Below are positions 10,310-42,960 of a stretch of 54,553 bases of DNA, piece after piece. The notes below the pieces were generated by a model, which saw only the letters and a list, made by a program, of their open reading frames with translations, made no database searches and had not been told where the DNA came from. The translations under genes and the position numbers were made by a program. The DNA is from Bacteroidota bacterium (GTDB lineage: Bacteria > Bacteroidota > Bacteroidia > Chitinophagales > Saprospiraceae), in NCBI GenBank assembly GCA_029781865.1, contig JAKOVW010000027.1, positions 1 through 54,553 of the forward strand, given 5' to 3'. Position 1 is the stretch's first letter. Every line of letters begins with the position of its first letter.

Positions 10310-10341
10310 AATAGCTCCTTTATTGGGGCTATTTTTTTTTT
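10310..10341 (+). terminator. Rho-independent terminator after the haloperoxidase-fold gene
   Basis: ATAGCTCC at 10311-10318 pairs with GGGGCTAT at 10325-10332 (one G-T pair), extended by flanking A-T pairs and followed by a run of about nine T. It lies 30 bases after the stop codon. Confidence 0.85.
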
Positions 10342-10432
10342 TACGCAGATTACGCAGATTTCGCAGATTTCGCAGATTACACAGATTACGTGGATTACGC
10401 AGATTACACCGTTGTCGCAGATTGCACAGATT
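10342..10432. repeat. Degenerate short tandem repeat (CGCAGATTA family)
   Basis: About nine imperfect copies of a 9-10 base unit close to CGCAGATTA lie between the terminator of the haloperoxidase-fold gene and the 3' end of the convergent propeller gene. The same unit, in the opposite orientation (AATCTGCG), recurs at 42869-42960 and more weakly at 45751-45831. A twice-occurring TGTGCATGCA follows at about 10440-10470. Confidence 0.85.
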
Positions 10433-32770: not shown

Positions 32771-32786
32771 TTTAGATTTGTCTAAA
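32771..32786 (+). promoter_or_regulatory. Operator-like palindrome over the -7 element of the DtxR-family gene
   Basis: TTTAGATTTGTCTAAA has perfect 6-base arms (TTTAGA and TCTAAA). It contains TAGATTTG at 32773-32780, which fits the -7 consensus TANNTTTG. It lies 10 bases above ATG 32796. Bound repressor would cover the -7 box. Position, symmetry and the gene downstream suggest auto-regulation by the DtxR-family protein; the binding itself is inferred. Confidence 0.7.
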
Positions 32787-32795
32787 ATATATGCA

Positions 32796-33458
32796 ATGCT
32801 TAGTACATCAGAGGAAAACTATTTGAAGGCAATATACAAAATTGGTCAAATGAATGCCGGTCATCCGGTGCTGACCAATACCATTTCGGCAGAGCTCGGG
32901 ACAACGGCGGCATCCGTAACCGATATGGTAAAGAAACTGGCTGACAAAAAGTTCTTGACCCATGAAAAGTATTACGGAGTAATCCTGAGTAAAGAAGGCC
33001 AGAAAACAGCACTGGATCTCCTCCGCCGGCACCGGCTTTGGGAAACCTTTTTACATAACAATCTTGGATTCGGTTGGGAAGAAGTGCATGAATTGGCAGA
33101 GCAACTTGAACATATTCAATCCAAGAAACTAACGGATAGATTGGATGCATTTCTGGGGCATCCGAAATTTGATCCTCATGGAGATCCGATTCCCAATGAG
33201 CAGGGAAGTTTCACATACCGGAATCAAATCACCCTTAATTCCATCCAGGAGGTTGGAAAAAAATTAATCATGATTGCCGTAAAAAATCAGGATGTTGATT
33301 TCCTAAAATATCTGAATAACATTCAATTAAAACCGGGAGCTGTATTGGAAATCATTTCGATAGGGGAATACGACCGATCCTATAAGATCCGCATCAATCA
33401 AAAAGAAGAAACGGTACTAACATTTGAGGTAGCGCATGAGATCATCATTAAGCCTTGA
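32796..33458 (+). CDS. DtxR/MntR-family metal-dependent transcriptional regulator
   Basis: This 220-residue protein (ATG 32796) has a winged-helix DNA-binding domain (SEENYLKAIYKI; TTAASVTDMVKKLADKKFL), a dimerisation/metal domain (HRLWETFLHNNLGFGWEEVHELAEQLEHI; LGHPKFDPHGDPIP), and a C-terminal SH3-like FeoA domain from about residue 145. Metal ligands of the MntR/DtxR class (Glu/His in HELAEQLEH) are present. It should repress metal-uptake genes when iron or manganese is bound. The start at ATG 32796 rather than TTG 32778 follows from the operator. The last 130 bases have decayed relatives in the adjacent tandem array. Confidence 0.92.
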   Translation: MLSTSEENYLKAIYKIGQMNAGHPVLTNTISAELGTTAASVTDMVKKLADKKFLTHEKYYGVILSKEGQKTALDLLRRHRLWETFLHNNLGFGWEEVHELAEQLEHIQSKKLTDRLDAFLGHPKFDPHGDPIPNEQGSFTYRNQITLNSIQEVGKKLIMIAVKNQDVDFLKYLNNIQLKPGAVLEIISIGEYDRSYKIRINQKEETVLTFEVAHEIIIKP

Positions 33459-34278
33459 AATTGGTAGATTGCATTTTTTAAAACACATAGTACACATAGG
33501 AACACATAGATTAGAAAATCTCTATGTGGAACTATGTGTACTATGTGTTAAATGAATTCTTATAAATAGATTAAGACAGGATGTGTTATTGAAATTAATT
33601 CGATTGGGAATACGACCGTATAGCTAATATGCAAATAAATTAAAATTAGGAATCGGTATTTCAATTTGATGTGGCGCATGAGATCATCATTAAGCCTTGA
33701 AATTGGTAGATTGCATTTGTTAAAACACATAGTACACATAGGAATACATAGATTAGAAAATCTCTATGTGGAACTATGTGAGCTATGTGTTAAATGAATT
33801 CTTATTAATAGATTAAGACGGGATGTGTTATTGAAATTAATTCGATTGGGAATACGACCGTATAGCTAATAAGCAAATAAATTAAAATTAGGAATCGGTA
33901 TTTCAATTTGATGTGGCGCATGAGATCATCATTAAGCCTTGATATTGGTAGATTGCATTTTTTAAAACACATAGTACAAATAGGAACACATAGATTAGAA
34001 AATCTCTATGTGGAACTATGTGTACTATGTGTTAAATGAATTCTTATAAATAGATTAAGACAGGATGTGTTATTGAAATTAATTCGATTGGGAATATGAC
34101 CGTATAGCTAATAAGCAAATAAATTAAAATTAGGAATCGGTATTTCAATTTGATGTGGCGCATGAGATCATCATTAAGCCGTGAAATTGGTAGATTGCAT
34201 TTTTTAAAACACATAGTACAAATAGGAACACATAGATTAGAAAATCTCTATGTGGAACTATGTGTTGAATAAATTCTT
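33459..34278. repeat. 242-bp tandem repeat array with long hairpins
   Basis: The array starts in the 3' end of the DtxR-family gene. The motif GCGCATGAG recurs at 33432, 33674, 33916 and 34158, an exact 242-base period. Each unit has an imperfect copy of about the last 130 bases of the gene (frameshifted, with an early stop), then a 68-base hairpin (33482-33549, 33724-33791, 33966-34033, and a shortened one at 34208-34266). The hairpin has an 18-bp perfect outer stem, a symmetric GAA/GAA internal loop, an 8-bp inner stem and a 10-base loop. The later copies are nearly identical. The array fills the gap between two convergent genes; the hairpins could end transcription from both sides. There is no coding sequence here. 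Confidence 0.95.
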
Positions 34279-34283
34279 ATGTT

Positions 34284-35702
34284 CTAAATACCTACTTCCT
34301 GTTTTAAATCAGGAATTTCGATTTTATCAAAACCATGTTGTCTTAAATAATCTCTGTAGATCAATTGGGTTTCGTATTCTCCGTGTACGAGAAAGAGTTG
34401 TTTGCAGCTTTTGGTTTGATTTGAAAGGAAATCAGACATTTCTTTTTGGTCTCCGTGTGCAGAGAAAGAATCCATGATTTCAATTTTTGCATTGACTTTT
34501 AATTCTTCTCCCAATAATTTGATTTCCGTTGCTCCGCGCAACAATTGTCCGCCTGGAGTGCCGGGTGAGCAATACCCGACCATTAATATGGTATTCTTTG
34601 GATTTTCTATGTTATTAAAAACGTGGTGTTGAATTCTTCCCGCATTCAACATTCCGGCAGCTGAAATGATGATGGAGGGTTCTTTACTGGTGTTCAGTCG
34701 TTTTGAATCGTTGACATCGGTAATATAACTTAGCCTTTTAAATCCGAACGGATCCGGATCTTTAACAATATACTCGTGCAATTCATCATCAAAACATTCT
34801 GAATGAGCTTTAAAAATATCTGTGGCATTTACAGCCAGCGGACTATCTACAAAAACGGGAACATTAGGTAATGTACCTTCATTGACTAATTGATCCAAAA
34901 GAAAAACCAGTTCCTGAGTTCTTCCTAAACTAAAAGCAGGAATAATCAGCTTGCCTCTTTTTTCAACACAGGTTTCGCGAATGATATTGAGAAAATGTTC
35001 TTTCTCAGCCGGTTTTTGTATGTGTAATTTATCTCCATAGGTTGATTCGGTAATGATGATATCAGCTGGCCACATCTCCTGTGGATCCCTTAAAATGGGC
35101 CTGTTAGGACGGCCAATATCTCCTGAAAATGCAATTCGCAAATCATCGCCTCCCTGGTTGATAACCAGGTTTACACTTGCAGAACCCAAAATGTGTCCTG
35201 CATCTGTAAATAAAACTTTTACTCCTTTTACAACATCCATCCAACGGTCATAGGATACTGTAACAAATTGTTTCATGGCCTGTGCTACATCTCCTGCATT
35301 ATAAATAGGGTTGACTCTTGGTATTTTCTGACCCGGATGCTTGTCGCGTTTTCGATCCAGTTTTTTATTCTGATATTCTGCATCGCGTTCATTTATATGT
35401 GCAGTATCCAGTAACATGATGGCGGCAAGATCACGGGTTGCCGGTGTACAAATTATATTTCCTTTAAATCCGTCTTTGACTAGCTTCGGAATTCTGCCGC
35501 AATGGTCAATGTGTGCATGTGATAAAATAAGTACATCGATTTCGGCCGGAATGAAATTGAAATTGGCATTCAATTCTTCGAGATTATCAAAATGCCCCTG
35601 GAACATACCACAGTCTAAAAGTATTTTATATCCATTATCCATTGTAATGAGATGGCTGGATCCGGTTACTTCACGAGCTGCTCCACAAAATTTAATTTTC
35701 AT
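34284..35702 (-). CDS. MBL-fold/beta-CASP RNA hydrolase
   Basis: This 472-residue protein has the metallo-beta-lactamase core: LSHAHIDHCGRIPKL (the HxHxDH zinc motif), DAGHILGSASV, and FSGDIGRP. The beta-CASP insert contains ESTYGD, PAFSLGRTQE and SAAGMLNAGRIQHH, and a final SAHGDQKEM follows. This is the CPSF73/RNase J-like family of bacterial 'MBL fold metallo-hydrolases' that act on RNA. It lacks the C-terminal extension of RNase J. It follows gltX by 11 bases, so the two may share a transcript. Confidence 0.93.
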   Translation of the reverse strand: MKIKFCGAAREVTGSSHLITMDNGYKILLDCGMFQGHFDNLEELNANFNFIPAEIDVLILSHAHIDHCGRIPKLVKDGFKGNIICTPATRDLAAIMLLDTAHINERDAEYQNKKLDRKRDKHPGQKIPRVNPIYNAGDVAQAMKQFVTVSYDRWMDVVKGVKVLFTDAGHILGSASVNLVINQGGDDLRIAFSGDIGRPNRPILRDPQEMWPADIIITESTYGDKLHIQKPAEKEHFLNIIRETCVEKRGKLIIPAFSLGRTQELVFLLDQLVNEGTLPNVPVFVDSPLAVNATDIFKAHSECFDDELHEYIVKDPDPFGFKRLSYITDVNDSKRLNTSKEPSIIISAAGMLNAGRIQHHVFNNIENPKNTILMVGYCSPGTPGGQLLRGATEIKLLGEELKVNAKIEIMDSFSAHGDQKEMSDFLSNQTKSCKQLFLVHGEYETQLIYRDYLRQHGFDKIEIPDLKQEVGI

Positions 35703-39798: not shown

Positions 39799-39816
39799 GC
39801 AATGTAAACACTAAAC

Positions 39817-39860
39817 ACTAATTATCAATTACTAATTACTAATTGGCAATTACTAATTAG
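39817..39860. repeat. AT-rich repeat upstream of the four-helix-bundle gene
   Basis: ATTACTAATT-type units occur three to four times in tandem and as partial palindromes just after scpA. The same motif forms a perfect palindrome on the other side of the gene (40435-40480). Confidence 0.7.
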
Positions 39861-40245: not shown

Positions 40246-40434
40246 TTTGTGAGTCAAATTTATTCGCCCGAGGACTAAAGTGTGATTTGCTTTGGTTTAA
40301 TTCCATACTAACCACTATGGAGTTTAATGAGATTGACTAAGACAGTTAATTAGCTATCTTCAAGTGATGAGTTTAATTTGGTTTTCATATCCAATTTCAA
40401 TCAATTCAATTGAGTTTGGTGATCAATTAGAACT

Positions 40435-40480
40435 AATTACGAATTACTAATTAGTAATTAATAATTAGTAATTCGTAATT
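40435..40480. repeat. Perfect 46-base palindrome overlapping the 3' end of the DUF5682 gene
   Basis: AATTACGAATTACTAATTA (40435-40453) pairs exactly with the 19 bases at 40462-40480 around GTAATTAA. The palindrome covers the last codons and stop of the DUF5682 gene. It could form a hairpin in either transcript but lacks a long T-run. Confidence 0.85.
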
Positions 40481-42868: not shown

Positions 42869-42960
42869 GTCGCATCACAATCTGCATAATCTGCGCAATC
42901 CATATTATCTGAGTAATCTGCGCAATCTGCCTAATCCCTATAATCTGCGTATTCTGCGTC
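42869..42960. repeat. Degenerate short tandem repeat (AATCTGCG family)
   Basis: About ten imperfect copies of AATCTGCG(C/T) run up to the stop codon of the MoxR gene. The unit is the reverse complement of that at 10342-10432. Confidence 0.85.

Follow-up and report, generated by a model that had tools for sequence, protein, structure and literature searches.

How does an intergenic region come to be filled with a tandem repeat, and where does the repeat unit come from? This question is raised by a 54,553-nucleotide stretch of DNA from a member of the Bacteroidota (hereafter, the window), in which a tandem array lies between a gene for a dtxR-type regulator and a gene for a beta-CASP protein. 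According to a preliminary description, the end of the regulator gene and its downstream hairpin were duplicated, the duplicate decayed, and the whole was then amplified. Tests of homology, of tree topology and of divergence between copies fit this account. The array very likely arose by tandem duplication of the gene end together with its hairpin, followed by decay of the spare copy and by recent amplification and homogenisation.

Layout of the Locus

The regulator contains the Pfam domains Fe_dep_repress, Fe_dep_repr_C and FeoA, and its gene is matched in 53 of 60 genomes, its own being counted; an alternative start (TTG at 32778) is present in the list of open reading frames. The genes flanking the array on its two sides both face inward. 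Between them, TRF detects an array at 33422-34265 with a period of 242 and 3.5 copies, the units having 96% matches and 0% indels. It thus consists of head-to-tail neighbouring copies of fixed period, which is what characterises a tandem repeat of the minisatellite (VNTR) kind. The exact period of 242 bases that had been reported is seen in the anchor GCGCATGAGATCATCATTAAGCC, which recurs at 33432, 33674, 33916 and 34158. The copy number rests on one draft of 93 contigs, and one genome per species was compared.

Starting from the anchor, each unit comprises block E, a spacer, the hairpin H, a flank with AATTCTTAT and the gene-derived block G', which leads into the next E (Table 1). In the last copy, the right arm of the hairpin is short by 9 bp, and two more mismatches lie ahead of its AATTCTTAT. 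A second AATTCTTAT, at 34272-34280, lies past the last copy and is followed by unique sequence; from this recurrence, the duplication junction would fall at about 33563-33570.

Table 1. Coordinates of genes and repeat components at the locus.
Feature	Position	Strand	Basis or remark
Intact gene for a metal-dependent regulator of the dtxR/mntR type, 220 aa from ATG	32796..33458	+	ORF, Pfam
Block G, from which the unit interior derives	33326..33431	+	alignment, shuffles
Block E of the gene itself (copy zero), 27 nt: the final 8 codons with the stop	33432..33458	+	later copies differ by at most 1 base
Hairpin H, copy 0, 68 nt	33482..33549		arms 33482-33510 and 33521-33549, 29 nt each, 90% complementary
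Probable duplication junction	33555..33570		flank AATTCTTAT (33555-33563) continues into the gene-derived block
G' of unit 1, derived from the gene block by decay	33570..33673	+	alignment, shuffles
E, spacer, hairpin and flank, copy 1	33674..33811		repeat comparison
G' of unit 2	33812..33915	+	alignment, shuffles
E, spacer, hairpin and flank, copy 2	33916..34053		repeat comparison
G' of unit 3	34054..34157	+	alignment, shuffles
Partial last copy: E, spacer, incomplete hairpin, diverged outer edge	34158..34280		TRF, copy comparison
Metallo-beta-lactamase/beta-CASP/RMMBL gene, convergent, far side of the array	34284..35702	-	Pfam

Other repeats occur elsewhere in the window. A perfect heptamer array of TGCCTAC (19.3 copies, 100% match) is located at 27-161, near the start of the contig. 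A second flavour of short repeat is represented by degenerate nine-base arrays at 10341-10432 and 42879-42959, with ACGCAGATT-like units and their complement, and A+T-rich seven-base arrays (ACTAATT / TAATTAG) are found at 39810-39859 and 40434-40480.

The Unit Interior as a Decayed Gene End

The claim that each unit contains a diverged copy of the gene end is upheld by alignment. G' and gene positions 33326-33430 are identical in 72 of 105 columns, with 31 mismatches and two one-base gaps, and the unit interior at 33570-33672 aligns to the gene with a score of 70, compared to a maximum of 44 among 5000 dinucleotide shuffles (mean 23.8, sd 3.5). For the remaining units, the scores are 72 and 64. 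The proposal would have fallen if no significant similarity had been present upstream of 33421. When everything from 33421 on is removed from the gene, along with its counterpart in the unit, the score is still 62 (shuffle maximum 47), so this refutation fails. Restricted to the part upstream of 33401, the score is 46 (shuffle maximum 38), and upstream of 33341 the similarity is at chance (score 16, shuffle median 18). The homologous span had been given as 33328-33458. Homology is indeed present, but the block begins at about 33326, and gene and units approach identity only from 33432.

A single lost base and an early stop had also been described for the unit. The loss of frame and the presence of stops stand, but there are two single-base gaps rather than one, and the stops in register are TAA and TAG. 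G' therefore resembles the neighbouring gene more than chance allows and has lost its coding capacity, as a pseudogenised partial duplication would. The substitutions from gene to G' are G>T (6), A>T (5), C>T (4), C>A (4), T>A (3), A>G, G>A, C>G and A>C (2 each) and T>G (1). There is a drift to A+T, with changes at 16 of 41 G+C sites as opposed to 5 of 64 A+T sites in the reverse direction (p 1.5e-4), and the G+C fraction is 0.28 in G' and 0.39 in the gene block. Mismatches at the three codon positions number 10/34, 7/35 and 14/34, an unevenness that is not significant (p 0.16).

Relative Age of the Copies

The later copies had been described as nearly identical, and pairwise the three G' copies differ at only 2 of 104 positions. 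The gene and G' differ at 31 of 103 ungapped columns. Compared to this divergence, the block consisting of E, spacer, hairpin and flank has changed little: copy 0 differs from copies 1 and 2 at 5 and 2 of 138 positions, respectively (Fisher p 1.6e-8 and 4e-11; copy 3, which is partial, is left aside). The noncoding part alone gives 5/110 and 1/110 (p 6.8e-7 and 2.6e-10). Copy 3 differs from copy 0, gaps being ignored, at 1 of 28 positions in E, 0 of 22 in the spacer and 7 of 68 in H. Since the block from E to the hairpin is far less diverged than the gene is from G', its homogenisation with copy zero took place later than the divergence of G'. Because the copies are nearly identical from the last 8 codons through the stop and the spacer to the hairpin, the real end of the gene is copy zero, in agreement with the preliminary description. 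What divergence there is lies at the margins, before 33432 on the left side and beyond the last hairpin on the right.

In trees that combine the gene with nine relatives and two of the G' copies, and from which the homogenised block was excluded, the gene and G' form a group that is moderately supported (FastTree 0.898; ultrafast bootstrap 84). The branch to the gene has a length of about 0 and that to G' a length of 0.57 (FastTree) or 0.67 (IQ-TREE), so the change falls on the unit side. With block E included, the support for the grouping is 0.989; the tree without E is preferred because E has been homogenised.

The Locus in Related Genomes

A DNA query covering 33330-33663 matches 3 of 100 genomes, one of them being that of the window itself; the other two, G076 and G083, match in the hairpin part only, with up to seven candidates scored per genome. 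At the same depth of scoring, the gene-derived part of the array is found in none of the 99 other genomes, and no intermediate state of the array is seen in any relative.

The dtxR protein is 48-60% identical in eight other species of the genus. In seven of these eight (the exception being G008), the sequence directly downstream of dtxR reads as an mntA-like gene, encoding the substrate-binding part of a metal transporter. The best match in the window's genome to the first 106 residues of this gene is 32% identical; to call the gene lost presumes that no assembly gap is involved, the draft being 99.24% complete. On the other side of dtxR, a nitroreductase gene is adjacent in 4/4 relatives checked. 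The distance between dtxR and the beta-CASP gene is about 53 kb in G004 and about 34 kb in G007, and the two genes are on separate contigs in G001 and G006; thus, the dtxR/beta-CASP junction looks lineage-specific.

Nramp has two matches in the window's genome, one in G001 and none in G004, G006 and G007, these being the four relatives checked. One of the two in the window's genome, at G000:C43:92253-94238, is divergent from a second dtxR paralogue, and the mntA-like gene is absent beside the dtxR of the window. A swap of one manganese uptake system for another would be a plausible background.

The Hairpin and Its Palindrome Family

The hairpin region (33459-33570) folds at -41.7 kcal/mol, with a z of -8.6 relative to shuffles. 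On the + strand, copy 0 folds at -38.2 and the later copies at -31.6, -32.0 and -18.4 kcal/mol, pair compensation not being counted. The hairpin belongs to a dispersed and patchy palindrome family made of ACATAG sub-motifs. A pattern for one arm has matches in 19 of 120 family genomes, with a maximum of 503 in G076, where the reversed control pattern has 0. This control has 1 or 2 matches in 20 of the 120 genomes, so that only the 9 genomes with at least 4 arm-pattern matches are clear of noise. The arm pattern is absent from eight other members of the genus (G002 and seven more). Ten of the 14 matches in the window's genome lie in the array, and the others are on contigs C51 and C67.

The Y1_Tnp domain (PF01797) has 4 matches in the window's genome and none in G076, a 97%-complete draft and the genome richest in palindromes. 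A RAYT-driven origin of the REP type was rejected, since the genome with the most pattern matches is the one without a Y1_Tnp match. The ACATAG palindromes are very numerous in G076 (e.g., at L187 and L202-L216). In the literature searched by title and abstract or by motif string, those records contain no description of these palindromes or of a comparable array.

By mechanical ORF calls, 18 palindrome clusters in G076 lie between tandem (10), convergent (4) or divergent (3) genes or within an ORF (1); some of them look like the two arms of a single palindrome. Long-period arrays accompany 2 of these 18 clusters (from 15 stretches, with 33 listed of the 503 matches) versus 1 of 126 control gaps, a weak comparison given that the control gaps were intergenic regions of more than 100 nt at 80 loci of other species, with unmatched lengths. 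Arrays with a period of at least 30 overlap a cluster in 7 of 20 stretches, a biased sample as the stretches were chosen because their matches lie near one another, and three are from the window's genome. A 308-bp array of 3.9 copies at L172 840-2026 (G083:C68) lies near the 3' end of a gene, with no match to that ORF; its unit combines two palindrome flavours, ATCCGT-like and ACATAG.

Is the capture of gene ends a general property of these palindromes? The question was addressed with 16 arrays or clusters, the window's own and 15 from 12 of the 20 palindrome-rich stretches, the other eight stretches falling outside the test. Each was compared to flanking ORFs of at least 100 aa, up to 1200 nt, giving 29 comparisons with 60 shuffles each. 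Only the window's array (1/16) matched a flanking ORF, namely dtxR (z 13.6); the other 28 of 29 comparisons gave z values of 0.5 or less, in a test that is blind to source genes that are short, gone or decayed. This speaks against gene-end capture as a general habit of the ACATAG palindromes, and the earlier view that the route from gene end to satellite is unusual is compatible with this narrow test. A broader proposal would make the palindromes a patchily distributed class of elements, independent of transposases, around which long-period tandem duplication starts; adjoining gene ends would occasionally be captured as a satellite unit, the gene staying whole because the exchanged block starts in its last codons. 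We regard this broader proposal as doubtful.

Alternative Explanations

The unit interior might derive from a different, diverged dtxR, acquired by horizontal transfer or with an integrating element that targets 3' ends and has E as its attachment core. Integration at a 3' end leaves a short identical block adjoining a diverged stretch, an arrangement that E and G' resemble. However, G' scores 70 with its own neighbour gene and at best 32 with 29 dtxR genes from relatives; moreover, the E copies are only 242 bp apart, and near-identity extends past E through the noncoding spacer and the hairpin, which makes this origin most improbable. A mobile or viral origin of the array was likewise rejected: 33326-34300 has no match in plasmid records at the sensitivity of blastn, and viral contigs have no exact match to a 34-base G' pattern. 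Diversity-generating retroelements also combine a gene 3' end, a hairpin and an inexact repeat copy nearby, all of which co-occur here. Yet the changes from gene to unit are mixed rather than confined to adenines, the copy has gaps and stops, and the four neighbouring proteins scanned include no reverse transcriptase; that the gene and unit are a template/variable-repeat pair has a negligible probability.

Selection for a function is a further alternative, in which the repeated hairpins block transcription from both directions or stabilise RNA between the convergent genes. The inward orientation of both flanking genes and the folding of the hairpin far beyond that of shuffles are in its favour. 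Nevertheless, a scan for intrinsic terminators across 33300-34400 gives a single match, on the + strand at 34296-34315 and thus outside the array; the three later copies are all less stable than copy 0 on the + strand, and the related clusters of G076 occur in mixed gene contexts with no preference for convergent ends. A functional, selected array is therefore very improbable, and the terminator reading itself was dropped, as by the rule of the scan the array contains no stem with G-C pairs and an immediate T-run. Finally, a draft genome may contain repeats that were collapsed or falsely extended during assembly. Here, all four copies can be told apart by private variants, one or more in each, in the 11 variable columns (counted from the anchor), and the array is shorter than 0.9 kb with genes on either side; an artefact is highly unlikely, though the copy number might still be wrong.

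A Model for the Origin of the Array

Tandem duplication followed by decay and amplification, the preferred reading, can be divided into four steps. The mntA-like transporter gene beside dtxR would have been lost in this lineage, and the beta-CASP gene would have become the convergent neighbour. A segment reaching from within the gene end through the hairpin would then have been duplicated in tandem. The spare gene end, being free of selection, may have lost its frame, gained stops and drifted to A+T. Finally, unequal exchange or replication slippage between the blocks of E, spacer and hairpin would have multiplied and homogenised the unit, a process that the hairpin may have eased. Repeated exchange within the E to hairpin block would let divergence survive at the outer edges only, matching the pattern that is seen. 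Unequal crossing-over, slippage and conversion fit the sequence alike and cannot be told apart. As the exchanged block starts at the last 8 codons, the gene would remain whole at any copy number.

The array is probably neutral, a product of ordinary genome drift. The window has no match to Rfam families at the gathering score, and a role beyond that of a hairpin-rich spacer between convergent genes is not indicated. Every unit has a short piece matching the end of the real gene, which calls for caution in annotation. Each of the steps is ordinary; what is unusual is that the stages are legible at one locus. The birth of an intergenic repeat can be read here, since the source is still adjacent to its decayed copy and to the amplified units, and the limits of exchange are marked by the edges.

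Comparison with Known Systems

REP palindromes and RAYT transposases are the subject of two papers (PMC3733652, PMC6006769). Like REP and BIME elements, the ACATAG palindromes are dispersed, intergenic and sometimes clustered. They differ from such elements by their ACATAG sub-motifs and by being most numerous in a genome without a Y1_Tnp match.

The array also resembles a partial tandem gene duplication with pseudogenisation, in which a truncated 3' copy with gaps and stops lies past an intact gene. Unlike in a plain partial duplication, the fragment has here been amplified within a repeat unit and homogenised. MIRU-type repeats are an example of the minisatellites, or VNTR loci, of bacterial intergenic regions. 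As at such loci, the array is intergenic, its units run head to tail, measure tens to hundreds of bp and are nearly identical internally, its last copy is partial, and the repeat extends into the stop codon of a gene. In contrast to such loci, the origin of the unit, the decayed end of a neighbouring gene, is still readable here.
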